Shown here piece by piece: positions 38,400-62,190 of a DNA stretch of 64,000 bases (the stretch's first letter is position 1; every line of letters begins with the position of its first letter). Made by a program: the position numbers and the translations under genes. Source of the DNA: Corynebacterium sp. SCR221107 (GTDB lineage: Bacteria > Actinomycetota > Actinomycetes > Mycobacteriales > Mycobacteriaceae); assembly GCF_027886475.1 (NCBI RefSeq), contig NZ_CP115670.1, positions 2,294,001-2,358,000 of the forward strand. Reading direction: 5' to 3'. The notes under the pieces were generated by a model that searched no databases, was not told where the DNA came from, and worked only from the letters and a program-made list of their open reading frames with translations.

Positions 38400-41300
38400 G
38401 GCTCATCCCCGCAGGTGCGGGGCGCTCGGTCGAGGTCTTCACGGTTCTTGATCGCTTCAAGGCTCATCCCCGCAGGTGCGGGGCGCTCTAGCTAAGACTA
38501 GGTGTCGTGTCCACCAGATCGGGCTCATCCCCGCAGGTGCGGGGCGCTCCGAAGTGTATGTGACCCCGCTAGGTGATGGACGGGCTCATCCCCGCAGGTG
38601 CGGGGCGCTCTTTCCTACCTAGACTGGCTGACAAACGGCAGGGGGCTCATCCCCGCAGGTGCGGGGCGCTCGTGATATGTCTTCCTGATCGTTAGTCGTG
38701 TATGGGCTCATCCCCGCAGGTGCGGGGCGCTCCGACGACAATAGTCATTGTGTCGGTTTCTTCGGGGCTCATCCCCGCAGGTGCGGGGCGCTCGCCGTGC
38801 AGAATTTCAAGAGGTCACCGGGCGTGGGCTCATCCCCGCAGGTGCGGGGCGCTCTATTTCCATGTCGGCGAAGGTCGCCGGGGTTGAGGCTCATCCCCGC
38901 AGGTGCGGGGCGCTCTTGCTGCTCCCAGTAGCGGTTGAGTAGCCCCTCTGGCTCATCCCCGCAGGTGCGGGGCGCTCTTTGTACAGTCCGATAACCCGGA
39001 CGGTTTAGTGGGCTCATCCCCGCAGGTGCGGGGCGCTCTTCCACAGGTCGTACCGCGTTGTGGTTAGTTCCGGCTCATCCCCGCAGGTGCGGGGCGCTCC
39101 CTGACAAATACGCCCTAGTTGGCGGGCACCGCGGCTCATCCCCGCAGGTGCGGGGCGCTCCACTGTCTCGTAAACTTCGCTGGTCATTGGTTGGGCTCAT
39201 CCCCGCAGGTGCGGGGCGCTCAGCAATTGGATGACGGGGCGGGTATTCGACCGGGGCTCATCCCCGCAGGTGCGGGGCGCTCCTAGCTTTGCGGTCATTT
39301 CTGCTCCTTGTGAAGGGCTCATCCCCGCAGGTGCGGGGCGCTCTTTTTCTCATCTAGGCGATTCGATGCCCTTTGCGGCTCATCCCCGCAGGTGCGGGGC
39401 GCTCAGTTCCAAAAGCTCGACGAACTTAAGGTGATGCGGCTCATCCCCGCAGGTGCGGGGCGCTCCTTCTTCAGGCTGGTGGCTGCGTTTTGCGCCAGGG
39501 CTCATCCCCGCAGGTGCGGGGCGCTCTTCATCCGTGGAAATAATGCCTAACGCGTGTAAGGCTCATCCCCGCAGGTGCGGGGCGCTCGTCATCGGATAGG
39601 CCACCGGGTAGATGCTCCAGGGCTCATCCCCGCAGGTGCGGGGCGCTCACCAGGCGATTATCAAGGCCCTGGGCGCTGGTGGGCTCATCCCCGCAGGTGC
39701 GGGGCGCTCGTGCGCGCTTACGCACAGCTGCTGGTGGAGATGGGCTCATCCCCGCAGGTGCGGGGCGCTCGAAATACCGGAGGGCGCGCCCGTTGTCCTA
39801 GCGGGCTCATCCCCGCAGGTGCGGGGCGCTCGCGCCTTAATATCCTCCCAGCTCACGACACAGAGGCTCATCCCCGCAGGTGCGGGGCGCTCAGCTTCGC
39901 AGCCATCGACGGGGTCACCCCGTCCGGCTCATCCCCGCAGGTGCGGGGCGCTCAGCTTCGCAGCCATCGACGGGGTCACCCCGTCCGGCTCATCCCCGCA
40001 GGTGCGGGGCGCTCGTGGGGGTCCATACTTTATCAACAACCGCACGCGGCTCATCCCCGCAGGTGCGGGGCGCTCGCATCGACTGTCACCCCGGATAGAC
40101 TGGGGCGAGGCTCATCCCCGCAGGTGCGGGGCGCTCCTCCTTCGGAGATGAGCAGCCCCCACACCCCACGGCTCATCCCCGCAGGTGCGGGGCGCTCACA
40201 TCCTGCATCGCAGCAGCCACATCCGCACGGGGCTCATCCCCGCAGGTGCGGGGCGCTCTTATGCGCTGGATGAGGATAATGCCGCGTTGCGGGCTCATCC
40301 CCGCAGGTGCGGGGCGCTCTGCGGGGGTCGCATGTGGCTGCGGCGTATGAGCGGCTCATCCCCGCAGGTGCGGGGCGCTCTCCTTTTTCAATGCACATAT
40401 TTTCGCACACGTGGGCTCATCCCCGCAGGTGCGGGGCGCTCCATCCGTTCGTCGCTGACCATCCACGAGAAAAGGGCTCATCCCCGCAGGTGCGGGGCGC
40501 TCGCTTCCAGCTGGCGCTTTGAGTTTGAGTATTGGGGCTCATCCCCGCAGGTGCGGGGCGCTCTCGCGCTGGTGCTGCCCGCCAATCCATTGAGGGGGCT
40601 CATCCCCGCAGGTGCGGGGCGCTCTGACTCTATCGACTGGGAGGACGCGCCCGACGGGGCTCATCCCCGCAGGTGCGGGGCGCTCTGGCACACGCCCAGG
40701 TCGATGACCTCAAGGCCGGGCTCATCCCCGCAGGTGCGGGGCGCTCTAAATAGCGGTGAAATCTGTTAGTGACTGACAGGGCTCATCCCCGCAGGTGCGG
40801 GGCGCTCGCAGCCGCTAACACCCCCAGGCGTGTGATGGTGGGCTCATCCCCGCAGGTGCGGGGCGCTCACATCCGCGTTGAATTTGGGGAATACCGGAAC
40901 CGGCTCATCCCCGCAGGTGCGGGGCGCTCCCAATAGCTTTCTCAGATTAGAGTAGGTAGCAGGGCTCATCCCCGCAGGTGCGGGGCGCTCTTCCTCCACG
41001 CCGATGACCTTGTAAATCCGAAGGGCTCATCCCCGCAGGTGCGGGGCGCTCCCCGGCGTGTACGGAACATCCCGGTGGCGACAGGGCTCATCCCCGCAGG
41101 TGCGGGGCGCTCCTAAAACCGAGCCCATGATTTCCCGCACCCATGGGCTCATCCCCGCAGGTGCGGGGCGCTCTGCGCACCCCACACCGAGGCCCGAGCA
41201 GACCGGGGCTCATCCCCGCAGGTGCGGGGCGCTCGTCATAGCGGGCGTGGGGTCGATTCTTGCGCAGGGCTCATCCCCGCAGGTGCGGGGCGCTCAAACG

Positions 41301-44300
41301 ACGGCGTTAGTGTGGTAGTCCTTGACTGGGCTCATCCCCGCAGGTGCGGGGCGCTCCTGGAGGCGATGCTTTCGGATATTTTCACGCAGGGCTCATCCCC
41401 GCAGGTGCGGGGCGCTCTACACGAGCACCCTCCGCGCTAGTACGCTGGCCGGCTCATCCCCGCAGGTGCGGGGCGCTCTGCTTCACCCCAATCGATGTGG
41501 TTGGCGAGCGGGGCTCATCCCCGCAGGTGCGGGGCGCTCGTCTGGTGCTATCAGTCCTGCCTCTGCTAACGCGGCTCATCCCCGCAGGTGCGGGGCGCTC
41601 TACGCGCCACCGCACGCCCACGTGTACGACCCCGGCTCATCCCCGCAGGTGCGGGGCGCTCGAACGAGAACCACGACTTCTTTAGTGGTTCGGGGGCTCA
41701 TCCCCGCAGGTGCGGGGCGCTCCCTGCTGGCCTCGCAGTGGGGGTCATTATCGGAGGCTCATCCCCGCAGGTGCGGGGCGCTCATCTACAAAGTCATCAA
41801 CCGACAGTCACGCCCGGGCTCATCCCCGCAGGTGCGGGGCGCTCTCCGGCGTGTCCAACCACTGCTCGGGGGAATCAGGCTCATCCCCGCAGGTGCGGGG
41901 CGCTCCTTGCCTCGGTGGCGAATGAAAAGGTGGCCACGGGCTCATCCCCGCAGGTGCGGGGCACTCGATACGTCCATGATTACCGGCGTGCATGGGCACG
42001 GCTCATCCCCGCAGGTGCGGGGCGCTCTTGTAGATGTTCGAGTTGTAGCTCAAATCTACGGGCTCATCCCCGCAGGTGCGGGGCGCTCCCGGTTGTGTCC
42101 CCGCAGGGACTCCGGCAGGTGGGCTCATCCCCGCAGGTGCGGGGCGCTCTTCCGCCTCCCAGTGCTTAATCCTCGCCGTGGCGGCTCATCCCCGCAGGTG
42201 CGGGGCGCTCATAATCTCCCCTCAATTGAGGAAGCAGCCGGGGGGCTCATCCCCGCAGGTGCGGGGCGCTCTCTCCACTCTGCGGGCAGCTGGTATCGTC
42301 TCACGGCTCATCCCCGCAGGTGCGGGGCGCTCACTGATTTTATTAAGGGGTTTTTCACCCCACAGGGCTCATCCCCGCAGGTGCGGGGCGCTCTCCACCC
42401 CATCATCACCCCCACCCTTGAAATCGGGCTCATCCCCGCAGGTGCGGGGCGCTCTTCACTGGGCGCCGAAGGAGGAAGAATGAGCAAGGCTCATCCCCGC
42501 AGGTGCGGGGCGCTCCCTTTTTGGCCGAAATTTACGATCACCGGCGTGGGCTCATCCCCGCAGGTGCGGGGCGCTCAGAACCCGGCACCGTCGCCTACCT
42601 CCACCCACGGGCTCATCCCCGCAGGTGCGGGGCGCTCTTCACTGGGCGCCGAAGGAGGAAGAATGAGCAAGGCTCATCCCCGCAGGTGCGGGGCGCTCCC
42701 TTTTTGGCCGAAATTTACGATCACCGGCGTGGGCTCATCCCCGCAGGTGCGGGGCGCTCAGAACCCGGCACCGTCGCCTACCTCCACCCACGGGCTCATC
42801 CCCGCAGGTGCGGGGCGCTCACACCAACAAGCAGGGAGCCAGAGGCGGACACCGGCTCATCCCCGCAGGTGCGGGGCGCTCTATCCGCATCTGCCCCTGA
42901 GCCCGCGGGGGCTGGGCTCATCCCCGCAGGTGCGGGGCGCTCTCCGCGAGCGTCGCCTTCGCAGCGCAACAACGGGGCTCATCCCCGCAGGTGCGGGGCG
43001 CTCCCCATCTCCTGCTCCAACGAGATACGGCGCTTCGGCTCATCCCCGCAGGTGCGGGGCGCTCATTTCCTTGAGGAAGGGGTCTAGGCCGGTGCGCGGC
43101 TCATCCCCGCAGGTGCGGGGCGCTCCCCGGCTTTCTGTGCCAGCAAATCCAACAAGGCGGCTCATCCCCGCAGGTGCGGGGCGCTCCTTTCGGCACTGGC
43201 TAAGCAGCATGGTGTGTCGGGCTCATCCCCGCAGGTGCGGGGCGCTCCTTTCGGCACTGGCTAAGCAGCATGGTGTGTCGGGCTCATCCCCGCAGGTGCG
43301 GGGCGCTCCTGCTTGTTCTTGTGTGGTGAATTCGCGGGTTGGGCTCATCCCCGCAGGTGCGGGGCGCTCGGCTTAACAAATCCCACGAACTTCTTTTTCA
43401 TCGGCTCATCCCCGCAGGTGCGGGGCGCTCGTGCAGTTGGATTCTATGCAGTCGTCTATTGGGGGCTCATCCCCGCAGGTGCGGGGCGCTCGTCATCTCA
43501 AACTGCTCACAACGAATGTTCTTGGGCTCATCCCCGCAGGTGCGGGGCGCTCGCCAATCTGGATGCTGGGAAGATCACTACGGGGGGCTCATCCCCGCAG
43601 GTGCGGGGCGCTCGGTACACGGCGATTGTGCAGCGGAGTGCCCCGGGGCTCATCCCCGCAGGTGCGGGGCGCTCCATAAATGTTCTGATCCTTCGCGCTG
43701 AAAAGGCGGCTCATCCCCGCAGGTGCGGGGCGCTCACCGGTCTGCACTGTCCACTTGGTGATCCAGCGGGCTCATCCCCGCAGGTGCGGGGCGCTCGACA
43801 TGCGCCGCCATCGGCGTGAGCGGGATGAGGGCTCATCCCCGCAGGTGCGGGGCGCTCACCGGTCTGCACTGTCCACTTGGTGATCCAGCGGGCTCATCCC
43901 CGCAGGTGCGGGGCGCTCGACATGCGCCGCCATCGGCGTGAGCGGGATGAGGGCTCATCCCCGCAGGTGCGGGGCGCTCCTCAACTCGTGGGAGCCGGGC
44001 ACTGAAAACGGGGGCTCATCCCCGCAGGTGCGGGGCGCTCGTGGTCCTCGACCCGATCGGTGCCGCCTCCACGGGCTCATCCCCGCAGGTGCGGGGCGCT
44101 CGGAATGCAGATCGAGCACTTCCTACTGGTGCACGGCTCATCCCCGCAGGTGCGGGGCGCTCCACGACGCCTACCACAAAGGCGCGCAAGTGATGGGCTC
44201 ATCCCCGCAGGTGCGGGGCGCTCTGACTTTGCCTGTCACTAGGATTGAGCCTGTTGGGCTCATCCCCGCAGGTGCGGGGCGCTCACCAAACCCAAGCTCA

Positions 44301-46542
44301 TAAACCTGGGGGTAGGCTGGCTCATCCCCGCAGGTGCGGGGCGCTCCTATCGGCGGCCGCGTCGATCATGATCGCCAGAGGCTCATCCCCGCAGGTGCGG
44401 GGCGCTCGGTGTGGTGGGGGTGGTCGCATGACCGCCCCACGGCTCATCCCCGCAGGTGCGGGGCGCTCTATCGGGTTGGCTACATACGGTGTTTCTGGTG
44501 GGGCTCATCCCCGCAGGTGCGGGGCGCTCGGCCTGTGCAACACCACCTGGTCGAGGCGGTCGGGCTCATCCCCGCAGGTGCGGGGCGCTCCTGTCTTATG
44601 AAGCCGAAAGACTCACCCGCATCGGCTCATCCCCGCAGGTGCGGGGCGCTCTTTCCTCCCATTCGGTGATGAAACGACGGTGCGGGCTCATCCCCGCAGG
44701 TGCGGGGCGCTCTCGTGTCACCACGGCCACGCAGGTTGCAGTCACGGCTCATCCCCGCAGGTGCGGGGCGCTCTTCTCCTCACCCTCCTTAACCTGCAAT
44801 TCGGGGGGCTCATCCCCGCAGGTGCGGGGCGCTCGAAATCGCCGCTCAGACAATTACCGCCACGCACGGCTCATCCCCGCAGGTGCGGGGCGCTCCCAGA
44901 GTTGCGGTGGCAACTGCTGTATCTGCTGGGCTCATCCCCGCAGGTGCGGGGCGCTCGAGGAGGAGGGGAGCTAGTGACTTGGTTTAAGGGGCTCATCCCC
45001 GCAGGTGCGGGGCGCTCCGCGACAGATCAGTCTCGTCGTACTGGCCGACCGGCTCATCCCCGCAGGTGCGGGGCGCTCTCATCGCTGATACCGGTGCGGC
45101 ACAGGCGCAGGGGCTCATCCCCGCAGGTGCGGGGCGCTCTGCGAGCGACCCGGCGCGCATTAGCGACGTGCGGGCTCATCCCCGCAGGTGCGGGGCGCTC
45201 CGATGATTGCCCGGTACGTCACTAAGGGGATGGGGCTCATCCCCGCAGGTGCGGGGCGCTCGGGGTCGTGGGTGCGTTTGGTAAGGTCGCGTACGGCTCA
45301 TCCCCGCAGGTGCGGGGCGCTCCACTGATAAATAGCATTCCTCACCGTTGGGTTGGGCTCATCCCCGCAGGTGCGGGGCGCTCCTCCCACCACTGTGCGT
45401 CCGTTTCCCGAATGACGGCTCATCCCCGCAGGTGCGGGGCGCTCTGCTACGACGTCTGACATGCGCAGTCCCAACAGGGCTCATCCCCGCAGGTGCGGGG
45501 CGCTCCTCTTGGTGGTTACCTGTCGGCTCCGGCTTCGGGGCTCATCCCCGCAGGTGCGGGGCGCTCTCTCCTCGGCACTGAAAGTCTTCGACGGGTTAAG
45601 GCTCATCCCCGCAGGTGCGGGGCGCTCTGACCGCGAACTCCAGCTCGCCCTAGACCGCTAGGCTCATCCCCGCAGGTGCGGGGCGCTCGCTAATCCCCAG
45701 ATTAAACGCCGCCTCTGCAGGGGCTCATCCCCGCAGGTGCGGGGCGCTCTATAGGCGGCGATCAGCAGCACACCCAGACAGAGGCTCATCCCCGCAGGTG
45801 CGGGGCGCTCTGATCACAGGCGGCTTCAAGGTCGCGGGCTTGCGGCTCATCCCCGCAGGTGCGGGGCGCTCTTGAGTAGGGAGGAATTGACACGCTCGCC
45901 AGTCGGCTCATCCCCGCAGGTGCGGGGCGCTCCGACCAGGGCGGCGTGGGCCTCACCCTCGCCAGGGCTCATCCCCGCAGGTGCGGGGCGCTCGAGCCCG
46001 CGAGCTCCCAGAAGTCCACGGCGGACGGCTCATCCCCGCAGGTGCGGGGCGCTCCTCTAATTTGAGAAAGCTATTGGCTAGGTGCAGGGCTCATCCCCGC
46101 AGGTGCGGGGCGCTCGCCGACTTATGCCCAAGCTGCGTCTGCACCACCGGCTCATCCCCGCAGGTGCGGGGCGCTCTTTTTCTGGTCTTGCACCTAGGGC
46201 AGCTAGTGCGGCTCATCCCCGCAGGTGCGGGGCGCTCCCCACGCCCTTATCAACCATCCATTTGCTTCCGGGCTCATCCCCGCAGGTGCGGGGCGCTCTC
46301 CACCAAGCGGTTGAAGTCCGTCGCCCCGATGGGCTCATCCCCGCAGGTGCGGGGCGCTCGGCAAGGGGTTTCCTGTGGAGCATCCGGCATTGGGCTCATC
46401 CCCGCAGGTGCGGGGCGCTCGTTGCTTGTGTTTGTGAGTTGGCCAGCCTTTTCGGCTCATCCCCGCAGGTGCGGGGCGCTCTGTAGCGCAAGGACCGGGT
46501 TGATGTCCCATGCGGGCTCATCCCCGCAGGTGCGGGGCGCTC
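38400..46542 (-). CRISPR. Type I-E CRISPR array, 134 repeats and 133 spacers
   Basis: 28-bp repeats with core CCCCGCAGGTGCGGGG recur every 61 bp. Stepping through every repeat position I count 134, the last at 46515-46542. Spacers are 33 nt except two of 34 nt (38916-38949 and 44285-44318). In crRNA sense (minus strand) the repeat ends in the 5' handle ATGAGCC, matching the type I-E pattern, so it is transcribed in the same direction as the cas genes and the leader end is at 46543. All repeats look identical except 41939-41966 (one G to A). Four spacer blocks are duplicated in tandem, leaving about 126 different spacers. Open frames across it are artefacts of the repeat. Confidence 0.98.
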
Positions 46543-46628
46543 CCTTAGTGACCAGCGCGTTTAGTGCCTCATTTACGCTAGCACATGCAACTTTCCAGCC
46601 GCTTGGTGCCTCAACGCTCTTGGTTGAA
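46543..46628 (-). promoter_or_regulatory. CRISPR leader
   Basis: The 86 bases between the last repeat and the cas2 stop are the leader side of the array, where new spacers would enter and the pre-crRNA promoter should lie. I see a TTGCAT -35-like word but no clear -10, and no AT-rich character as strong as in E. coli. Confidence 0.6.
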
Positions 46629-46952
46629 TCACCAATAGCGCCGAGCTTTGCTCCAACCGGTGCGACGAGTTGTGCTCTTCTTATTCGGTCGCACCATGAG
46701 TTTCACGCCATCGAAGTCGGTCGGTTCCCAGTCGTGCCGATGAACCTTGAAGTCAAGACCTTGCTCATTTGCCGCGTTGTGGACCAGAATCGCCCGACCA
46801 TCCTTTACGAGGTCGCAGGTTCGTTGCCAGATTGCTTCCCTTACCCGCGCGGTTGGTCGACCTACGAACACACCCGGTGAAATTTCGAGTAGCCACTTGG
46901 TCAGATCTCCGCGCAGACCGGCGGGACAAGCCGTGACGACGAGTACCATCAT
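46629..46952 (-). CDS. cas2: Cas2e
   Basis: 107 aa, the E-subtype of Cas2. Begins MMVLVVTACPAGLRGDLTKWLLEISPGVFVG and contains the characteristic RVREAIWQ and GRAILVHNA...GLDFKVHRHDWEPTDFDG blocks. Bridges two Cas1 dimers in the spacer-integration complex. Last gene of the cas operon, 3 bases after cas1; the leader and array follow directly. Confidence 0.95.
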   Translation of the reverse strand: MMVLVVTACPAGLRGDLTKWLLEISPGVFVGRPTARVREAIWQRTCDLVKDGRAILVHNAANEQGLDFKVHRHDWEPTDFDGVKLMVRPNKKSTTRRTGWSKARRYW

Positions 46953-46955
46953 GGA

Positions 46956-47885
46956 CTATTGATCCTCCCAATTCACTCCGCTCGGCACCACCGCAAGGTC
47001 GCTCCACAGACGTAGTTCTGCGTCAATTCTGTCTGCTTCGGAACGGACTTCCATCAGAAAAAGCAAGTCCTTAACCATCCTCTCCACTAGCCGCTTTTCG
47101 ACGACCTTGTCACGGACGTGGTGACGAACAATTCGGTCGGCGTTCATTTGTGCGCTCGCGACAGCGTCAAAAGCTGCGGGAATGGTTATTTCTGCTTTGT
47201 AAAGATCTGCGAGATCGTAGACGAGGGATCGATCGGTGCCTTGATGGACGATGCCTAGAGCTGGGTTGAATCCAAGACTGACGATGACGGCATGGGCGAT
47301 CCCATAAAGAGCTGCATTTGCAGCAGTCAGGGCCCGATTGATGGGGTCACCAGAGTCAAAGTCATTGGGATCATAGCTTCGGCGGTTCCAAAACACGCCG
47401 GTGCGTTCACTTTCCGCAGCGTAGATGCGCTTCATACGGGCGCCTTCGCGTCCACGAAGCTGTGCCATGGTGAGCCGCGAAACGTCCTCACCGGGGAACC
47501 TCATGGCATACATCTGTCGCGCGCAATAAAGGCGGCGTCGTTGATGAGTCACAATTTCCGCTTGGGCGATTGCATTTCGAGCAGTCTTGGCAACTGGCCG
47601 CCCGTGTGCATAGTAGCGGATGCCCTTTTCCCCCACCCATGCCACGCTGACGCCCGAATCACCGAGCAACGCCATCGCAGCGAAGGTCACTTTTGTGCCG
47701 GGGCCAAGCAGCAGCACCGCAATGTCCGTCGCGGGGACATGGGCGATCCCGCGATGGTCATGGATAGTCAATGCATTGTTGTCGCGGTTGACTGCCGCTC
47801 TTTCCACATAAAGGAAGGAGATCCGCTCCTCCACTTTGGAAAGCGATAGCCGGTCAAGTGGTTCGCTGCTTGGTTTCCCAGTCAC
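46956..47885 (-). CDS. cas1: Cas1e integrase
   Basis: 309 aa integrase that inserts new spacers. Metal-ligand regions are present: the EGARMKRIY glutamate, H in ALGIVHQGTDRSLVYDLADLYK and the following Asp. GTG at 47885 is preferred: AGGAAC lies about 8 bases upstream and the start falls 8 bases after the cas6 stop. A reading from 47924 would add 13 residues inside cas6. Between cas6 and cas2 in the operon. Confidence 0.95.
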   Translation of the reverse strand: MTGKPSSEPLDRLSLSKVEERISFLYVERAAVNRDNNALTIHDHRGIAHVPATDIAVLLLGPGTKVTFAAMALLGDSGVSVAWVGEKGIRYYAHGRPVAKTARNAIAQAEIVTHQRRRLYCARQMYAMRFPGEDVSRLTMAQLRGREGARMKRIYAAESERTGVFWNRRSYDPNDFDSGDPINRALTAANAALYGIAHAVIVSLGFNPALGIVHQGTDRSLVYDLADLYKAEITIPAAFDAVASAQMNADRIVRHHVRDKVVEKRLVERMVKDLLFLMEVRSEADRIDAELRLWSDLAVVPSGVNWEDQ

Positions 47886-47893
47886 AATAGTTC

Positions 47894-48532
47894 CTAACGT
47901 TGCGCCAGTGTCAAGAGTCCGCAACCATATGCTCGCCCGCGGCCGATTCCACCGAAAAGTGCCGCTCTAAGTAGCTCGGGGGAAGTCACTTCCAGCACAC
48001 CGCGGTAACGAACCGTCCCAAGCGTGACCTTTCGGCGATTATCTTCCGCCGACTTCGCAAAACGAAGATGGTTGCGCTCGACTATGACGCACTCTTTCGC
48101 AACGAATCCGTGCCTTTGGGCGCGATCGAGAAGCCACGCGGACTGCCCTTCATCACCGACGAGTGGGACCACCTTCCCCCTCTTACCGCCCTTCACTGGG
48201 ACGGACTTGGTTGGATTCGCGACCAATTCGAAATTCCAGTGTTGCCCTCTTAGTAAAGCATCTGCAAAGGGGGCATAATTGGCGATTTCAGCAGGGCGTG
48301 TTGCCCATCCTGCCTGCTCAACGATGTGGCTGGCATCGCTGGCTTCAGGGCCGACGATGTACAACACATGCTCGTGTTCTCGCTTGTCCAAGCGCCAAAG
48401 CACCCGGGCGGATTCATTAAGGTCGGGTGGAAACGCCGCACGAACTGCGGCGTGCATGACCTGAGGATTGGTAATCAGTCGACGGGCTTGACGCCGCTCG
48501 GGGTTAAGCAGCACTCGAGTCAGCGTGGTCAT
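47894..48532 (-). CDS. cas6e: Cas6e (CasE), crRNA-processing endonuclease
   Basis: 212 aa RAMP-fold nuclease that cuts the pre-crRNA 3' of the repeat hairpin and stays bound to it. The early conserved His lies in ITNPQVMHAAVRAAF (residue 27), and the glycine-rich loop GGIGRGRAYGCGLLTL closes the protein. Overlaps cas5 by ATGA. Also the enzyme that would process the mini-array upstream of cas3. Confidence 0.94.
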   Translation of the reverse strand: MTTLTRVLLNPERRQARRLITNPQVMHAAVRAAFPPDLNESARVLWRLDKREHEHVLYIVGPEASDASHIVEQAGWATRPAEIANYAPFADALLRGQHWNFELVANPTKSVPVKGGKRGKVVPLVGDEGQSAWLLDRAQRHGFVAKECVIVERNHLRFAKSAEDNRRKVTLGTVRYRGVLEVTSPELLRAALFGGIGRGRAYGCGLLTLAQR

Positions 48533-49230
48533 ACCGACATCACCGCTTCCATAAAGGGATCTTCATGCTTGCCATCCTCATTCACAAAGACTGCACCTGT
48601 AGGGTCTTGTATAACCTCGCGCCACCCGTACTTGCGATGCTCTTGTGAGAAGGAGATAGGAACATCCTGACGAGGTACACCTATCTCACCTGGATCAGCA
48701 TCGCGGAAAATTGGCAAAGCCACCTTCTTAGCGCGCTTAGACTTGTGAGATTTCGAGGCTTGCCATTCCAATTCTTTCAGCGCCTCGACAGCCGAACCTG
48801 GCCTTACACCAATTAGCAGATCCGGCGACACCGGGCACGACCGACGACCAAGGAACAGAGGAAAGCGCGGGTTTAGGATGGCCCCACGAAGAGCCTCAAT
48901 CATCTCATCATCGTCGCTTTCGATCGCAGCAACGAAGACGGCATCCTCAAGGAAATACCTAGTCACCAGTGAATTTCCTCCGCCAACTTGCCATTTCTCC
49001 GCCGTCTGGAAGTCCTTGAGCAACGTTCCGGGCTGATCCACTCGTACAGCGAAACGCAATCCTGCAAGATCCTCAATCGGATCCGCTCGGCGTCGACCTT
49101 GTGCTGCTGCCAATAGGCCAACAACTCCCGACTTCGTGGGCATGTGGCCTGTGGCGCGAATACCGTACCGGCTCTCATCTCCCCATGATTGCATGGGGCC
49201 TTTCAGCCGCAAAAGCAGAGTTGAGGTCAC
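48529..49230 (-). CDS. cas5e: Cas5e (CasD)
   Basis: 233 aa. MTSTLLLRLKGPMQSWGDESRYGIRATGHMPTKSGVVGLL is the standard Cas5e opening. Binds the 5' handle of the crRNA in Cascade. ATGA overlaps on both sides, with cas7 and cas6, imply translational coupling and fixed stoichiometry. Confidence 0.95.
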   Translation of the reverse strand: MTSTLLLRLKGPMQSWGDESRYGIRATGHMPTKSGVVGLLAAAQGRRRADPIEDLAGLRFAVRVDQPGTLLKDFQTAEKWQVGGGNSLVTRYFLEDAVFVAAIESDDDEMIEALRGAILNPRFPLFLGRRSCPVSPDLLIGVRPGSAVEALKELEWQASKSHKSKRAKKVALPIFRDADPGEIGVPRQDVPISFSQEHRKYGWREVIQDPTGAVFVNEDGKHEDPFMEAVMSV

Positions 49231-50345
49231 TGCGCTTGCTCCTCCAGGAAGACATTCAGCGCAGAAATCAGACCGTCAAGGGTAGTCTTTTCGGCGAGAC
49301 CCTCAAAGGCATCTGCAAGGTCTCCCAACCCCATCACCAACGCCTTAACTGGCACGAATCCATAGGTCTGTTCGATCTCGCGTTCCTCATCGGCTAACTT
49401 CTTTGCGCCTTGTGCACGGCGACCTGCGGTCTCATCCGCGACAACGGGTTCCTCGAATGCATTGACGAGCGATACGGACCGGCTATCGCGGACGGCCACA
49501 TAAACTAGTTCTGGCAGCGTGTTATTGGCGAAGGTGTTCTGTTTACCAGTTGGCATGCTGGTGACAAAACTCTTCACAAAGGCAGCAACCGCCTCACGAG
49601 CCACGTTCGCATCACCGAGGTTCTCCGTGAGTGAATCTACGTCGACGGTGGCGAAGCGGTAGAGGGTGGAAGACATCATTTGCACGGTGCCGATCATGCC
49701 AGCACCAGCTTCGTCTTTGTCTTCTACATAGTCGTCTACGGCGGTGAAGTAGTCGAACTCCGGCTCGGACTCGTGAATTCCCAAGGCGTGAGCGACCTGT
49801 ACCGATGCGTCAACGTTGTAGTTTGGGTCATCTGCAAGCATACGACCGAACATCGCAATGTCCACGCTGTGAGCGGTATCCAGCGCTTCTTTGGCCAACT
49901 TCTTATCGGGCTTTCCCTCCGATTCAATAGCGAGTGCCGCCGCCTTCTGGATCTGGTCTGCGCTCAGGAACACAAGGTAGCCAGCCTCAGGATTTCCAGC
50001 CGCTGCTTCGTCGCCCTTCTTTGTCTTCTTTTCGGTGACCTTAATCCCAGCAGCCTTGAACACGGACTCAGCGAGCTTGGCAGCTTCTTTTTCGTCGAAG
50101 TTTTCGCTTTGCTTGCGAATTTCTTCGGCAACGATGTCCACAACCTTGCGAGTACGGAATCCAACTGACCCTGCAGGTAGGGTGGCTTCGAAATCCTTGC
50201 GGATAGCCCGCTTCCACGATTGCGATGACACTCGCTGGCGAGGGACCCCACCGAACACAGCCGTCTTAGGAGCGCCGGTATCGTCGCGGTTGATCAGGCT
50301 CGGTGGCAGGGTCTGTAGTGCGTGAATGTCGATGAACAAAGTCAT
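49227..50345 (-). CDS. cas7e: Cas7e (Cse4/CasC), Cascade backbone
   Basis: 372 aa. FIDIHALQTLPPSLINRDDTGAPKTAVFGGVPRQRVSSQSWKRAIRKDF is the family opening, with the RVSSQ motif that contacts RNA. Six copies coat the spacer in Cascade. 23-base gap to cse2, with GAGAGAGG ahead of the ATG, so it may be translated independently at a higher level. Confidence 0.95.
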   Translation of the reverse strand: MTLFIDIHALQTLPPSLINRDDTGAPKTAVFGGVPRQRVSSQSWKRAIRKDFEATLPAGSVGFRTRKVVDIVAEEIRKQSENFDEKEAAKLAESVFKAAGIKVTEKKTKKGDEAAAGNPEAGYLVFLSADQIQKAAALAIESEGKPDKKLAKEALDTAHSVDIAMFGRMLADDPNYNVDASVQVAHALGIHESEPEFDYFTAVDDYVEDKDEAGAGMIGTVQMMSSTLYRFATVDVDSLTENLGDANVAREAVAAFVKSFVTSMPTGKQNTFANNTLPELVYVAVRDSRSVSLVNAFEEPVVADETAGRRAQGAKKLADEEREIEQTYGFVPVKALVMGLGDLADAFEGLAEKTTLDGLISALNVFLEEQAQ

Positions 50346-50368
50346 GAGTTTTCCTCTCTCTTGGCTTT

Positions 50369-51028
50369 CTAGTGATGAGTTTCTGACGAAGTTTCTTCAG
50401 GACTCAACCCGGAAGGGTGTCCGATTGCGAAGTCGCGCCCCCAACGAAGGAGGACGCTATTTCGCCGTTCGCGGTTGTCGAGATTTCTTAGGTCTTGAGC
50501 AAATTGGCCATAGTCGAATCCCAAACGATTCGAGCGCAGCAGCGTGATCAGTGATCGCGCATGAATAAGCCTCGAGCGCGACCCCTGTGCCAGGATCATG
50601 GCGTCGAAACGCGGCTTGATAGACTCTGATTCGCTGATCTGATTCAGCCTGCCGCAGGCAGATGCGAAGGAAGCATTTTTCACGTGAGTCGCAGAAGTCG
50701 CTCCTTGCATATGAACTGCGAAGAGTGTCAGAGCGTGAAACGCTGCCCGCTCTGATGCTGAAGCCGAATCGCCTTTGCCAAGCTCCAATTCACTCAATTG
50801 CGGCTGCATGACACTGAGCACCAAATTCACCGCAAGCGGATCGCGATCCACCGGCTGACCAGCGAGCTTTCGCAGTCGTGCCAGCTGGGCACGAGCCGTT
50901 GCCTGCGCAGAGTGGGTAGAGCCTCCCAGATACGCATTTTGCAGGTATTCAGCAGTGGTAGCGACAGCAAAACGTAGATTTGGCTTGCCGACGTCCACAG
51001 GCTCCTTCGCCTCGGTCAAGTCACTCAT
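50369..51028 (-). CDS. cse2: Cse2 (CasB), Cascade small subunit
   Basis: 219 aa, mostly helical. ARAQLARLRKLAGQPVDRDPLAVNLVL and the C-terminal GFDYGQFAQDLRNLDNRERRNSVLLRWGRDFAIG match the Cse2 family. Present in two copies in Cascade, holding the displaced strand. Overlaps cse1 by ATGA. Confidence 0.93.
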   Translation of the reverse strand: MSDLTEAKEPVDVGKPNLRFAVATTAEYLQNAYLGGSTHSAQATARAQLARLRKLAGQPVDRDPLAVNLVLSVMQPQLSELELGKGDSASASERAAFHALTLFAVHMQGATSATHVKNASFASACGRLNQISESESIKPRFDAMILAQGSRSRLIHARSLITLLRSNRLGFDYGQFAQDLRNLDNRERRNSVLLRWGRDFAIGHPSGLSPEETSSETHH

Positions 51029-52680
51029 CGACTATTCCTTTCATTTTCATTCTCTTCTCGCTGAAGTTCCGTCAGAGGAAGCACCTCTTTGAGTTTTTTC
51101 CGCAGCCACATCAAGGCGGTCCCCGCAGACTGGATGCGGGTTTTATCCCCCGAGTCGACGGGTCGGCCCACGAGCGCCTTTGGGCCAGCTCCTCGGACCA
51201 ATACCTCAGCCTGCAGCAGGACACTCTGCTTGAGATGGTGCTGCCACTCCACCGCACGTGCATCAGCGTTTTCCTCGGTCACCCCGGACAACCAAGCGAC
51301 AAATTGCGGCTCCAACACGGCTAAGAGCGCATCGGTCGGATATGCCTGAAACTCATACTCGCCGCCGGCAGCCACCTTAAGTTGACCTGAGAAACTACCC
51401 AGAGCGATTGCTGCTTCGTTGGAAGCCTGCGCGGCGTCGAGCACGATGCGCCGAAGTCCGACTGATTCCTGTTTAAGCACGGCGATCGGCAGCTCCAAGC
51501 CGAAGTGGATCTCCGTTCCGACGGATGAGGCTTGGGCCCCATATTCCACCGAAAACAGTTCTACTTTTAATACTGGAGGGATTAGGTCAGGGTCTTGTGC
51601 CCGCAGAGTCGCCAAATTCGACAAAGTCTCCGGACGCTTGGGAGGAAGGTTCTTCGGACCGAAGCCAGCATCGTTGGCCATGCTAATCAGCGGAGGCAAC
51701 CCTCTCCACATGGTCCGCTCCGAGCCAAATGGTCGAGGGTAGTAAACGGGTTTATCCTTCTTGGACTTTGCAGAGCTGTAGCGATAGGCAGTCATTGGGT
51801 CGCCGAAGATATTGGCCCCAGCATTCGGGATTCGGTCGCCGTTGGATACCAACACGCCCACCACGCGTTCCGGGTTATTTGGATCTAGATAGAGTTTGAT
51901 CCGGCGGGACTGCCAAGTCGCTAGGTCGGCCGGCCCTTCAGGGAACACGAAGTCCGCTGTCGGATTTTCCCGCTGCGCGGCGGTATCTGGAGATCGCTCC
52001 CACACGGGCTTGTCACGTTCCTCGGACGCGCCCCAGACAGTGTTGAGTATCAGCGTCTCACGCAAACAATCTCCCACGACGAGAGTACCGCCGGTCATCC
52101 CCGTCCAGCCGGTACCAATTGGGTACCCTCTGCCGCCCTTTACGCGCGGGTCACCTTCAGCCCCTGATTTGATGCCGGAGAAATCAAAAGCCTGCACGTA
52201 CACGACCCATCGTGCAGCCTCGGCCAGATCGATGGATTCGCGAGATGCCCCGGCGCGCATCGTAAAGAAGTGGCTGTCAGCCTCCGGAACAATTCTGTGA
52301 ATGGGAGAGAACCGCCCGGTCTTCGTAGTTAGACCGGCTACCTGCATAAAAGGGGTGCTCTCATGTAACAGGTCAAACCGCTCGTGGAAACGATCGAGGT
52401 AGTCAAGTACTACCGTATCCGATTCTTGGCTGCTGACGAGCTCAAACTGCTCTTCCACCCAATCTAATGGATCGCCTTCGTCTTCCTCCCCTGGTGCGTG
52501 GGCGCGCCAGAAGATAGCGAGCACTAATCGATAGAGCGCGTACGTTTGGGCGGGGGAATCTGCCCGGATTTCAGTGACTGTGCATTTGCCGGAGAACAGA
52601 TCCCTAAGCCCCAGAAGCGGTCTGCTTCCGTCTTCGAGCACGCAGGGTATCCACGGCTCGTCAAGGAGTGAAAATGTCAT
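51025..52680 (-). CDS. cse1: Cse1 (Cas8e/CasA), Cascade large subunit
   Basis: 551 aa. Recognises the PAM and recruits Cas3. Starting at 52680 the protein opens FSLLDEPWIPCVLEDG, the family's usual N-terminus, after GGGAGAAGAAAAGAG. The frame is open back to 52743, where an ATGA overlap with the cas3 stop offers a coupled alternative start. The C-terminal four-helix bundle region is present. Confidence 0.93.
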   Translation of the reverse strand: MTFSLLDEPWIPCVLEDGSRPLLGLRDLFSGKCTVTEIRADSPAQTYALYRLVLAIFWRAHAPGEEDEGDPLDWVEEQFELVSSQESDTVVLDYLDRFHERFDLLHESTPFMQVAGLTTKTGRFSPIHRIVPEADSHFFTMRAGASRESIDLAEAARWVVYVQAFDFSGIKSGAEGDPRVKGGRGYPIGTGWTGMTGGTLVVGDCLRETLILNTVWGASEERDKPVWERSPDTAAQRENPTADFVFPEGPADLATWQSRRIKLYLDPNNPERVVGVLVSNGDRIPNAGANIFGDPMTAYRYSSAKSKKDKPVYYPRPFGSERTMWRGLPPLISMANDAGFGPKNLPPKRPETLSNLATLRAQDPDLIPPVLKVELFSVEYGAQASSVGTEIHFGLELPIAVLKQESVGLRRIVLDAAQASNEAAIALGSFSGQLKVAAGGEYEFQAYPTDALLAVLEPQFVAWLSGVTEENADARAVEWQHHLKQSVLLQAEVLVRGAGPKALVGRPVDSGDKTRIQSAGTALMWLRKKLKEVLPLTELQREENENERNSR

Positions 52681-52739
52681 CTCTTTTCTTCTCCCGCTTT
52701 CATTTGATTTTTCTAACAGGTCGTTTTCTTCATTGTTTA

Positions 52740-55532
52740 TCATTTGGGCTCGGCCCGCTGAACTTCGAAGAGCCCAACTTCCGAGCTATATTCGAGTATC
52801 GATTTCCCAATTTCAATGCGGTTTTTTTCATCAAGCCGTAATGCCACTTCCCCCTTGAGGAGGGGGTCTTTCGCCCACCCCTCAGGGGTGTCGCGCTCCA
52901 ACTGGGCGATGGTAAGGTCGAAAACCTCCTTAGTTCTTGTCAAGCGTGACGGCAGCCTCAGCGAAGACGAGGCTAGGTCAAATGCTGTCGGAAAGTCGAG
53001 AACCTCGCCGTCCATGTGCATCGCATCTCCTTTTGCATTGAGCGGGCGATATCCATATTCATTCGAAATGATCGGAATGACCTCGATGCTAGGATCTGCG
53101 TCACGGACTTGAGCGCGTCCCATAGACTCTTCGGCTTCTGCTCCTCTAGCGGAAAGATACCGAGTGAACAACTTGTCAAAGTCTGTAGCTCGTTTGAGGT
53201 GAGGCACTTGGAAATCCTCAGCGCGATGTTGAGCCGCCGCTCGACGCTGATCGCTTTCTAACCTCGCATTCTCCCAAGTCGACAGCCAAGGCGCCGGAAG
53301 CTTTGCTTCTACCTGGCTTCGGTCGTAGGTGAACTGGACTCCGATGGGGACATCCGCAGGTCTCTTCAGCGGAGTGCCTCGGAAGCGCGTCGCAAGGAGC
53401 AAGTAGGTGGCCAAAATGATGCTGGGATCATAAATCGCAGCCGTACCCGCTTCGAATACCGGAATCGGCTCGTGGCGTAGAATTCCCCGGACGAACATCT
53501 TCGGAGACCTTAGCTTTTCGGGACGATCAACTCCCGGTCGGTCATGGCGGTGAATTCTGCCTACGCGTTGAGCTATCAGGTCGAAGGGAGCAATGTCTGT
53601 AATCAAAATGTCTGCGTCTATGTCCAGACTCTGCTCAAGAACCTGTGTCCCGCACACGATGAGTCGGTCAGGACGCGCTCCTCCCCTATGAGAGTTTTTC
53701 CCTAGCTTCTCCAACAGCGCGTCTTCCTTTTTGGCGCGGTCGATCGCCGCAAACGCTGAGTGGTGGAGCTCCACCTCACCAGGGAAAACCGCGCTGAGGG
53801 CACGGTAGGATTCCTGGGCGCGGCGGATGGTATTAGAGATAACCAAAATGCATCCACCGTCTGAGGCCTGCTCGGCCACTAACTCCTGAAGCGCCGCGAC
53901 GCCATCCTCGATCATCTGTACCGAGATTTCCACGTCGTTTGCGCTCGCCCTTACCGGTAGCTCCTTGATGCCTTCCTTTGTCAAGGTAGTGATCAGGGGA
54001 TATTCGCTGGACTCAGCATATTGTTTTCCGGCGTTGAGTCCGCGACCGTAGGCGTCGATAAACGCTTGCTTAGCAGCTAGCGGGAGAGTGGCACTGAGCA
54101 TAATCACCGACACGCCATAGCGGGCCAGCCATTCGAGTGTCAATTGAAGATAAGAGCTGGTGTATGCGTCATAGGCGTGGCATTCATCAATGATCACGAC
54201 TTTGCCTGCCAGCCCTAGGTGCCTCAGCATCGAATGACGCATCTGCAGGCTCATCATCAAGACTTGGTCTACTGTGCCGATGACAAAGTTAGATAGCAGC
54301 CCCTTCTTTCGACCCGACAACCACGAGCCTGCCACGACTGCACCATCGCTTGCGTCATCGTCACCGATCCCGCGTAACCGAAGCTTGTTATAACTACGAT
54401 TGAGTTTGTTTTTCGAATGGGCGAGATATAAGGATGAAACAGAATCCGCTGGAGTGACTTGTTCCGCCCACGCTCTGAACCTTTCGAACAGTCCGTTCGC
54501 CGTGGCCATAGTGGGCGCTGCCATCACCACCCCTTGAGCTCCACTTTTTTGGGCAAGGATTTCCGAAACTTTAAGCGCTACCTCAGTCTTGCCTTCCCCA
54601 GTAGGTGCCTCCACGATCCACAGCAGCGGCACGCTCGCTTCCAACGCTGCCTCCAGCCCAGCAACCTGAACCGGACGCGGCTGAGCGTCAGCGGGCCACC
54701 CAAAGGAAGCAATGTACTCCCGTGCCGGATCATCGAGGTGATCCTCGCCACCACGAAACATATGAGGGTGGGTTAGCTGCACATACTGCATTCCTTTCTT
54801 TACTCGTCGGGAAAAGGAGCCAGAAGCCACCGTGGGGAAAGCCGAAGTGTTAGAGGCAATCCAGTCACACATGATGGTCAACCCAGTCAAGACTTGAATT
54901 GCGTTCATAGGGAGCTTTTGCAGTCGCGGAAATAATTGTGAAAAGCCTGTCGTGCGATCGAGAGCGTCAAGCAACTCGCGATGAACCGCTTTCCACGGGG
55001 TTGGATAGGCGGCATAGATTTCGAAAGCCTTCTCCCGCAGGTCGGGATTTGGCATGCCATGATGTGCTTCTGCAATGGCTGCTATTGATGCGGCCACGCG
55101 ATGCTTCACGCCTTTGGATTTCATCCACTCGAGCAGGATCGCCGCAGAAAACTGTGCATGGTAGGGACGATGCTGATACTCGAGAACCCCCATGGCTACT
55201 GGCAGCCCAGCCTCCAACACCGAATCAATCATCGACCGTTTGGTCTCTGGGTGGACAAGCTTTTCTTGAAAGCTCATGGTGGCCTTACCCAGATCGTGGG
55301 CTGCGACGATGAATACCGTGAAGGAACGCGTTAGATCCCAACCCAACCCAGTCACACCCACGAGAAATTGCTTCGTCTGATCTGGGAGGTACCCGTCCCA
55401 CACCGCCTCCGCAACTGCACCTGAATCAACCATGTGCTGCGCGAGGGACATCGGCCCTTGGTCATCACCACTCTTCCCCAGTATTGATAACGCCTGGGTC
55501 GAAAGACCTTCTTGAAAAGCTTCCCAGTCCAT
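52740..55532 (-). CDS. cas3: Cas3 helicase-nuclease
   Basis: 930 aa effector that shreds target DNA after Cascade binding. N-terminal HD nuclease: HD at residues 79-80 (AAHDLGKATMSFQ) with HHGM at 157-160. Superfamily-2 helicase: Walker A EAPTGEGKTE near 308-317, DECHAYD as motif II, and SATLPL as motif III. First gene of the minus-strand operon; AGGAA lies 8 bases before the ATG. Its leader contains the exact 11-nt match to the spacer of the divergent mini-array. Confidence 0.96.
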   Translation of the reverse strand: MDWEAFQEGLSTQALSILGKSGDDQGPMSLAQHMVDSGAVAEAVWDGYLPDQTKQFLVGVTGLGWDLTRSFTVFIVAAHDLGKATMSFQEKLVHPETKRSMIDSVLEAGLPVAMGVLEYQHRPYHAQFSAAILLEWMKSKGVKHRVAASIAAIAEAHHGMPNPDLREKAFEIYAAYPTPWKAVHRELLDALDRTTGFSQLFPRLQKLPMNAIQVLTGLTIMCDWIASNTSAFPTVASGSFSRRVKKGMQYVQLTHPHMFRGGEDHLDDPAREYIASFGWPADAQPRPVQVAGLEAALEASVPLLWIVEAPTGEGKTEVALKVSEILAQKSGAQGVVMAAPTMATANGLFERFRAWAEQVTPADSVSSLYLAHSKNKLNRSYNKLRLRGIGDDDASDGAVVAGSWLSGRKKGLLSNFVIGTVDQVLMMSLQMRHSMLRHLGLAGKVVIIDECHAYDAYTSSYLQLTLEWLARYGVSVIMLSATLPLAAKQAFIDAYGRGLNAGKQYAESSEYPLITTLTKEGIKELPVRASANDVEISVQMIEDGVAALQELVAEQASDGGCILVISNTIRRAQESYRALSAVFPGEVELHHSAFAAIDRAKKEDALLEKLGKNSHRGGARPDRLIVCGTQVLEQSLDIDADILITDIAPFDLIAQRVGRIHRHDRPGVDRPEKLRSPKMFVRGILRHEPIPVFEAGTAAIYDPSIILATYLLLATRFRGTPLKRPADVPIGVQFTYDRSQVEAKLPAPWLSTWENARLESDQRRAAAQHRAEDFQVPHLKRATDFDKLFTRYLSARGAEAEESMGRAQVRDADPSIEVIPIISNEYGYRPLNAKGDAMHMDGEVLDFPTAFDLASSSLRLPSRLTRTKEVFDLTIAQLERDTPEGWAKDPLLKGEVALRLDEKNRIEIGKSILEYSSEVGLFEVQRAEPK

Positions 55533-55545
55533 CGCGATTCCTAAA

Positions 55546-55559
55546 TCAAATAACTAATT
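55546..55559 (-). promoter_or_regulatory. Predicted Cascade-binding site in the cas3 leader
   Basis: On the minus strand AA (55559-55558) is followed by T and then TAGTTATTTGA (55556-55546), identical to positions 2-12 of the mini-array spacer. Positions 14-16 also match; the rest does not. A short seed match next to a PAM-like AA would permit Cascade binding without Cas3 cleavage. The site lies 14-27 bases upstream of the cas3 start codon, so binding should block transcription or translation of the whole operon. Confidence 0.75.
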
Positions 55560-55573
55560 CCAATTTCCGACAA

Positions 55574-55603
55574 TTTAGAGCATACCGACATGAAACGTAC
55601 AAT
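55574..55603 (+). promoter_or_regulatory. Likely promoter of the mini-array
   Basis: TTTAGA (55574-55579) and TACAAT (55598-55603) are 18 bases apart and point at the mini-array, placing the start of transcription near 55610, a few bases before the first degenerate repeat. Confidence 0.55.
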
Positions 55604-55618
55604 GCAGCCGGACGGGAA

Positions 55619-55706
55619 GATTGCCTTGCATACGCAGGGATGAGCCGTAGTTATTTGAGTTAACAGGCATCTTTTCCGCCTTGCCCCGCACGAGCGGGGG
55701 TACCTA
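55619..55706 (+). ncRNA. creR: CreR-like mini-CRISPR: degenerate repeat, spacer, degenerate repeat
   Basis: Repeat-like 1 (55619-55646) matches the array repeat in crRNA sense at 20 of 28 positions, including the whole 3' part GGGATGAGCC that becomes the 5' handle. Its stem has changed in a pairing-preserving way (CCTTGC with GCAGGG). Repeat-like 2 (55679-55706) matches 16 of 28 and keeps CCCCGC / GCGGGG. The interval of 60 bp nearly equals the array period of 61. The 32-nt spacer begins GTAGTTATTTGAG and matches the cas3 leader at positions 2-12. Known parallel: CreR/CreA guides that let type I Cascade repress cas genes. Regulatory function here is inferred; the architecture is directly visible. 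Confidence 0.82.
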
Positions 55707-56040
55707 GCCTGCAACATTCACGCCTCTCGATCAACCCTTTTCGTCAGGTTAACCTGCATGAGCGACATCCGCCCTCACAAAACCATGTGAGTTTCGAACC
55801 TATATTCGAAATTCTTTGCGTACTCGCGTACCAACTTGCAAATCACAAAGCACACGAAAGTTTCGGAGTACGGGCGTTTGTGGCAATAGACCATACTCAA
55901 CCACATCTTCAACTGGCGCTTTGGAGTTCGCAGAAGACTGATTACTCTACTTGCGACACCACGCCCCGAAGCGACCAATAAATGTCTCGAGGCACCTTCT
56001 GCGATTAGATTCGTTTCGCAAAAAGTGCCTCTGATCTGAG
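55707..56040. other. Gene-free region between the mini-array and tRNA-Arg
   Basis: 334 bases without a supportable gene. Contains the perfect palindrome CAGGTTAACCTG at 55745-55756. Short open frames on both strands have no ribosome sites of note. Transcription of the mini-array must end here, but I see no strong terminator. Confidence 0.5.
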
Positions 56041-56114
56041 CGCCCCCAGCAGGATTCGAACCCGCGACCAATCGGGTAGAAGCCGACTGCTCTAATCCAC
56101 TGAGCTATGGAGGC
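56041..56114 (-). tRNA. tRNA-Arg (anticodon TCT)
   Basis: Minus-strand cloverleaf: acceptor GCCTCCA / TGGGGGC (one G-T pair), anticodon arm TCGG-CTTCTAC-CCGA giving TCT, T-arm GGGTTCGAATCC. CCA is not encoded. Confidence 0.93.
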
Positions 56115-58779: not shown

Positions 58780-59108
58780 AGCCCTTCCGGGTCCGGAGTG
58801 CATAGCTGGGGTTTGCCGGTGATGCGGTGAGGCACAAGATTTAGGGGTCCTTGGGCGTGTGAAGATGCAAGTTCCTACACCAGCACTTCGCATCCCCAGG
58901 ACCCGCTTTGAACGCTACCGCCAGCCTGCTTGCCGACACCATCTGCCGCACCGTCGAGCTCGGGGTGACCACCACCGACGCCGCCGTGGCCGACGAGCTC
59001 ACGCACTTGTTCTGCGCCCCGGTCACGCTGGACCCGGACTGCGCTGAGTGCGGGATGGCCGGCCGCCTTCGTGATCATGTCGAACGGAAGGTCACGGACC
59101 TGCCAATC
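58780..59108 (+). mobile_element. Truncated ISL3-family element, copy B
   Basis: Begins with an inverted-repeat-like end (GCCCTTCCGGGTCCGGAGTG) and encodes the first 66 residues of an ISL3 transposase from 58908 (MNATASLLADTICRTVEL...). The zinc-finger cysteines CAECG are present. It stops where the intact ISL3 element begins at 59109. Its first 290 bases are nearly identical to copy C at 61905, so the two were once the same element. Confidence 0.85.
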
Positions 59109-61904: not shown

Positions 61905-62190
61905 GGCCCTTCCGGATCCGGAGTGCATAGCTGGGGTTCGCCGGTGATGCGGTGAGGCACAAGATTTAGGGGTCCTGGGGCGTGTGAAGATGCAAGTTCC
62001 TACACCAGCACTTCGCATCCCCAGGACCCGCTTTGAACGCTACCGCCAGCCTGCTTGCCGACACCATCTGCCGCACCGTCGAGCTCGGGGTGACCACCAC
62101 CGACGCCGCCGTGGCCGACGAGCTCACGCACTTGTTCTGCGCCCCGGTCACGCTGGACCCGGACTGCGCTGAGTGCGGGATGGCCGGCCG
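61905..62190 (+). mobile_element. Truncated ISL3-family element, copy C
   Basis: Starts GGCCCTTCCGGATCCGGAGT, the same end as copy B, and encodes the first 53 residues of the same transposase (from 62033) before breaking off at GMAGR, where IS3-family sequence begins. It differs from copy B by only a few bases. Confidence 0.85.

Follow-up and report, generated by a model that had tools for sequence, protein, structure and literature searches.

A probable CreR-type guide for self-control of a type I-E cas operon in Corynebacterium, and covarying guide-target pairs in related genomes

Between cas3 and the nearest tRNA gene of Corynebacterium sp. SCR221107, two degenerate copies of a CRISPR repeat enclose a single spacer, which raises the question of whether this mini-array is the debris of a larger array or a guide by which the type I-E system controls its own expression. 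An earlier note, made from the letters of this DNA, had read it as a CreR-like self-targeting guide, and guide/target covariation in relatives supports that reading. We estimate the probability that the mini-array encodes a CreR-type, cas-regulating guide acting as an autorepressor at close to 0.9. Because many relatives in the genus keep the match between guide and target despite changes in its letters, the mini-array very probably represents a genuine circuit of self-control, of a kind known from other systems. Here, the window is the whole 64,000-nucleotide stretch that was analyzed (NZ_CP115670.1, positions 2,294,001 to 2,358,000).

Type I-E locus of the window

The minus strand of the window carries cas3, cse1, cse2, cas7, cas5, cas6e, cas1, and cas2 together with an array of 61-bp period, the composition of a type I-E system:

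38400..46542, minus strand: canonical array, 133 exact copies of a 28-nt repeat
46629..52743, minus strand: cse1, cse2, cas7, cas5, cas6e, cas1, and cas2, overlapping or closely spaced
52740..55532, minus strand: cas3, which opens the type I-E operon and encodes Cas3_HD, Cas3_C, and helicase domains (Pfam)

Downstream of cas3 the genes overlap or are separated by gaps of at most 25 bases, and a single block upstream of cas3 could therefore reduce the expression of every cas gene behind it. The array spacing is 61 in 129 of 132 intervals. A phage search with positions 40000 to 46550 matched 18 records, 17 of them Corynebacterium phages; five of these 17 (C3PO, Kimchi1738, Cruella) match a window spacer (93.5% over 31 bases; E, 0.05), and the match of the remaining 12 is to the repeat itself. 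The site in phage C3PO for one canonical spacer has an AAC flank and is mismatched at guide position 1. Within the array, a stretch of 183 nt that comprises three repeat-spacer units is exactly tandem-duplicated (42425-42790); elsewhere in the window, a 285-nt direct repeat (58781-59065 and 61906-62190) has 99% identity.

Anatomy of the mini-array

The mini-array is oriented divergently from cas3, at 55619-55706 on the plus strand, between cas3 and the tRNA at 56041:

55574..55603, plus strand: candidate creR promoter TTTAGA-18-TACAAT, weak, the sole sigma-70-like site in 55450-56000
55619..55646, plus strand: degenerate repeat 1, with 20/28 positions matching the array repeat, 7/7 of the handle, and 6/6 stem pairs
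55640..55699, plus strand: predicted Cas6e-processed CreR RNA of about 60 nt, placed by Cas6e cleavage 3' of the hairpin
55647..55678, plus strand: guide (spacer), with 55647 the last handle base G and seed positions 1-11 at 55648-55658
55679..55706, plus strand: degenerate repeat 2, with 6/6 stem pairs, 14/16 of the core repeat, and 1/7 of the handle

Reading the two repeats directly bore out what the earlier note had described, namely, two degenerate plus-strand copies 60 apart (the long form among relatives), the first with an intact handle and a compensated hairpin and the second with its hairpin kept. The six-pair stem of repeat 1 retains its pairing partly through changed bases. The start of the handle, previously placed at about 55639, had to be corrected: the handle ATGAGCC(G) spans 55640-55647, and ATGAGCCG begins at 55640. 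Cas6e cleavage falls 3' of the repeat hairpin. One Cas6e cut per repeat, with selection acting only on the enclosed RNA, would explain why the handle is kept in repeat 1 and the hairpin in both.

When both strands of the window outside the array were scanned for repeat-like sequences (at least 19/28), four places were listed, and handle and hairpin occur together at one of them, the mini-array. A single spacer flanked by ectopic degenerate repeats, next to a cas locus, is the arrangement of a CreR. An Rfam scan of the window found four tRNAs and no family at the mini-array. Shuffling of 55450-56000 yields a mean of 0.4 expected sigma-70-like sites, and the same scan of the minus strand found no site for cas3, which we count against the CreR reading.

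Guide-target match in the window genome

The guide faces the start of cas3:

55525..55556, minus strand: target protospacer, covering the leader and start codon of cas3, with the matched part at 55542-55556
55557..55559, minus strand: AAT flank in the PAM position, directly before the target on the minus strand

Positions 1-11 and 13-15 are identical between guide TAGTTATTTGAGTTAACA and cas3 leader TAGTTATTTGATTTAGGA, so that 14 of the first 15 guide positions are matched and the sole mismatch is position 12, which is flipped out by Cascade. In the 3.04-Mb genome, TAGTTATTTGA occurs exactly twice, in the guide (55648-55658, plus strand) and in the target (55546-55556, minus strand), as expected from the claim that an 11-base seed match recurs once, at cas3; those 11 bases stand, and the extent of the match was understated, as 13-15 agree too. 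AANTAGTTNTTTGA occurs once in the genome, at the target. The limited seed complementarity beside a PAM that characterizes CreR guides is thus present, here in the leader/start region, and it is confined to the PAM side, ending at position 15. Of 90 real cas3 upstream regions, 58 contain a guide that bears a handle and has an AA-flanked seed match of at least 9/10; among 1,800 single-base shuffles, which keep base composition only, 7 do. These figures agree with the previous judgment that such a match is unlikely by chance. A pattern search of genome contigs with ATGAGCCGTAGTTATTTGA gave one match, in Mucilaginibacter, which we regard as unrelated.

Guide-target covariation across the genus

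A search for Cas3 in 242 genomes of the genus found homologues in 107. After 15 of these 107 were left out for weak, partial, or edge matches, 91 loci and the window were analyzed (92 in all); the scan upstream of cas3 covers 90 of them, with L097 and L098 out because their Cas3 match begins past residue 130. In a blind first scan, stand-alone repeats were picked without regard to any target and gave candidates in 65 of 90 loci. The seed score is the number of matches over the ten positions 1-5 and 7-11, and an AA flank was a precondition in scans and pairings except in a separate flank-free rematch.

An AA-flanked match of at least 9/10 in the cas3 upstream region of the guide's own locus was found for 53 of the 65 blindly chosen guides, compared with 55 of 5,785 cross pairings between loci, which include close relatives. 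At the same threshold, control guides matched in 0/65 (shifted), 1/65 (reversed), and 0/65 (complemented) cases, and canonical spacers reached an AA-flanked match in 14 of 4,109. In the flank-free rematch (best match, at least 11/16), AA stood beside the match in 53 of 57 guides, against a base rate of 6.1%.

The second scan required a second hairpin at a period of 40-71, at least 8/10 seed positions, and the AA flank. A stand-alone repeat with a second hairpin was found upstream of cas3 in 67 of 90 loci, and 61 of these 67 have a match of at least 8/10 in their own upstream region, compared with 87 of 1,340 swapped pairings; the 61 include four loci at 8/10 as well as L040 and L044, whose target lies far from cas3. 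These 61 loci carry 42 distinct seeds (differing by at least 3 of 11 letters), across which guide and target covary. The conservation of the seed match among relatives, which the earlier note had put forward as a check, was thereby found in the form of covariation. L034, whose Cas3 is 61% identical and which is the closest relative, shows changes on both sides, guide and target, at positions 2, 3, and 10, while at position 6 only the guide differs. A dedicated guide for self-repression thus appears common in one genus, at 61 of 90 type I-E loci scanned. Under the second-scan rule 27 of 92 loci are negative, L097 and L098 among them, and this is counted against the CreR reading.

A second hairpin is present in 52 of the 53 loci of the first set, and its handle scores 0-5/7, mostly 1-3, near chance. 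Of the 61 loci, 18 have a complete six-pair stem in repeat 1 (canonical register), 15 lack one pair, and 28 have at most four pairs, the last figure again counting against the CreR reading; where stem positions have changed on both sides, 31 of 47 still pair. In 56 of 61 loci the guide reads in the same sense as the coding strand of cas3 and so cannot pair there with the mRNA, which makes binding of Cascade to DNA the fitting route. Outside the genus, under a looser handle rule, one of 11 loci of the family (L139) has a similar unit, with a period of 61, an AAT flank, and a 9/10 match.

Pairing pattern and flank

Because the 53 loci of the first position profile were picked by a match over 16 positions, selection has partly shaped the profile's counts at 1-16; for the 42-seed set, the choice rested on positions 1-5 and 7-11 only. 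Positions 13, 14, 15, and 16, which were unused for detection, are matched in 35, 30, 23, and 20 of the 42 seeds, and positions 6, 12, and 18 are matched in 13, 10, and 10, the level of chance. Among distinct seeds, pairing is therefore kept at 1-5, 7-11, and 13-16 and declines past 16. Judged from these letters, the kept and ignored positions match the pattern of Cascade, in which every sixth crRNA base is reported to be flipped out; the same E. coli study nonetheless reports position 6 as matched in 45% of off-target sites (PMC5904413). Both the AA flank and the lack of kept pairing at 6 and 12 fit with DNA targeting by Cascade. Among the 61 loci, for which AA was required, the flank is AAC in 50, AAT in 7, AAG in 3, and AAA in 1; the AAT of the window is a minority form and is counted against the CreR reading. 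The genus set amounts to a natural record of the binding needs of Cascade, with 1-5, 7-11, 13-16, and the AA flank used and 6, 12, and 18 ignored.

Two classes of guide length

The repeat-to-repeat distance in the 61 loci is 48-49 in 37 and 60-61 in 24, with none between. The spacer is thus 12 nt short in 37 of 61 loci, and the window belongs to the long class. Twelve nucleotides correspond to two Cas7 units. Canonical arrays have a spacing of 61 in 3,919 of 4,113 cases and of 49 once. The short and long classes switch at least eight times on a Cas3 tree, which is a quick tree built without a mixture model from 86 of the 92 loci and in which 17 of 82 inner branches are open.

Type I-E guides cut by 6 or 12 are reported to slow degradation by Cas3 and not to abolish it (PMC7296934); the short match, and not a short guide alone, must therefore prevent self-cutting. 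In two type I-B systems, engineered truncated crRNAs are reported to repress rather than cut (PMC10989794 and PMC10551041), whereas the 12-nt shortening in the type I-E relatives of the window is natural. For type I-E of E. coli, one of these papers reports no evidence of shortened crRNAs guiding repression, as far as its available text goes (PMC10551041). The bimodal guide length among relatives may represent a new variant of CreR. That fast-changing, cas-repressing guides occur genus-wide and have repeatedly been shortened by 12 nt would imply a regulatory Cascade smaller than the defense Cascade, a proposal that we make tentatively and at slightly less than even odds. If true, guide length itself would help separate regulation from immunity, and the two-step guide length makes the smaller regulatory Cascade a testable idea.

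Alternative explanations

If the mini-array were only what is left of a decaying divergent CRISPR array, its 11-base match being due to chance, degenerate repeats such as those observed would be expected, and full divergent arrays do stand upstream of cas3 in L049, L052, and L061. The mini-array may well have originated from such an array; a mere remnant is nevertheless highly improbable, because guide and target match at the seed in 61 of 90 loci even as its letters change, a rate well beyond that of shuffled regions, pairings between loci, or canonical spacers. Another possibility is that guide and target form the arms of an inverted-repeat operator bound by a conventional transcription factor, since in 59 of 61 loci they are found on opposite strands. 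They lie on the same strand in the other two, however, and the self-match persists through 42 distinct seeds across species, keeps a register fixed to the repeat handle with AA on the target side, falls to chance at 6, 12, and 18, and declines after 16, which leaves the operator extremely improbable. Both the chance-decay and the operator models were rejected on the guide/target covariation.

The anatomy and the seed (1-5 and 7-11) are shared with the CreA of haloarchaeal type I-B systems, and the guide might accordingly be an antitoxin for a toxin gene instead of a regulator of cas genes. L040 and L044 speak for this possibility: their targets are at least 230 bp upstream of any cas3 start, and a small hydrophobic open reading frame (ORF) comes after each. 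In the window genome, the only seed-and-flank match of the guide is the cas3 leader, and not the promoter of a linked toxin gene as in CreTA, so that an antitoxin role is very unlikely. Partial matches also prime adaptation in type I-E systems, and Cascade might act at cas3 with spacer acquisition or priming, not transcriptional control, as the outcome. The paired stretch stops near position 16, while extended R-loops are reportedly needed for interference and priming (PMC5904413), and we consider this outcome as improbable as a decaying array. A guide for cas autorepression is the reading retained.

Proposed autorepression

For the predicted CreR, we infer transcription, processing, loading, repression, and release, the last two by analogy with published CreR work. 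The mini-array would be transcribed divergently from cas3, and Cas6e would cut the transcript into one crRNA-like RNA with a normal 5' handle and a 3' hairpin. This RNA would load into the system's own Cascade, which would open a short R-loop (1-5, 7-11, and 13-15) over the cas3 start region beside AAT, too short for cutting by Cas3 and sufficient to block transcription of the cas operon. Abundant free Cascade would thus repress the cas genes, and Cascade occupied by phage-directed crRNAs or disabled by anti-CRISPRs would allow derepression. In E. coli, Cascade is reported to block more weakly inside a transcribed region, and no transcription effect was seen at chromosomal partial-match sites in the part of that study considered here (PMC5904413). 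The window target, over the leader and start codon, lies in this zone of weaker block, which counts against the CreR reading. Use or engineering of these type I-E systems may meet built-in repression.

Relation to known systems

Shmakov et al. (2023, NAR) reportedly described mini-arrays of standalone repeats near cas genes with promoter-matching spacers, and both the position beside cas genes and the promoter-matching spacer are shared with the mini-array of the window.

According to passages of a review, CreRs autorepress types I-B, I-E, and V-A through partial complementarity to promoters (PMC13131331), and the model of release by competition and anti-CRISPRs is described in reviews as well (PMC12948488 and PMC12737573). 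On the evidence of these passages, a type I-E CreR as such is already in print. The CreR of Liu et al. (2023, Cell Host Microbe), as the reviews present it, shares with the window the mini-CRISPR beside cas genes, the partial complementarity to a cas promoter, and the autorepression model. The CreR passages of the reviews name no host genus; here, many relatives have spacers 12 nt short, and the window flank is AAT. No corynebacterial case of CreR was found in the literature searched. A 2025 review of CRISPR in actinomycetes describes a type I-E variant of C. diphtheriae with an array between cas3 and cse1, and the terms CreR and mini-CRISPR are absent from its searchable text.

The CreA of CreTA in haloarchaeal type I-B has two degenerate repeats and the same seed as the window guide, at 1-5 and 7-11 (PMC8501985 and PMC9458426, as far as their available text goes). 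CreA represses a toxin in another subtype, whereas the window guide matches cas3, with no other target found.

Other loci and phage mini-arrays

In L088, L112, and L116, and in L082 under a relaxed rule, a handle-bearing guide lies in the gap between cas3 and cse1, and its target is found in that gap too, an arrangement that would suit regulation of the genes from cse1 onward. Four cas3-cse1 matches were obtained under the second-scan rule, of which that of L062 (8/10, AAT, period of 55) looks spurious, as does the relaxed-rule match of L090. The hydrophobic ORFs that follow the target in L040 and L044 encode 55 and 63 amino acids and are possibly CreTA-like toxins. Stand-alone, handle-bearing repeats are found upstream of cas3 in L106, L108, L109, and L114, with a second hairpin at a period of 49 in L106, L109, and L114; the guides of these four loci have no good match upstream of cas3. 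L036, a close relative of L035, has no detectable guide-target pair and a second hairpin alone near cas3, a state that looks like loss of the pair. Divergent arrays stand upstream of cas3 in L049, L051-L053, L057-L059, L061, L064, L073, and L083-L086, with the mini-array between array and cas3, and they are a plausible source of it.

A conserved mini-array with host-like repeats was also found in the C. xerosis phages Dina (L152), Stiles, Troy, StAB, Lederberg, and Bran (L153-L157). It contains two guides, and among the loci examined their best matches (9/10) lie outside any cas3 promoter; an extended pattern of one of the two guides matched 0 of 242 genomes. The handles are 62 bp apart in five of the phages. 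The phage mini-array occupies an intergenic stretch flanked by hypothetical genes, close to the lysis genes, and five of the six phages are classed as Samwavirus.
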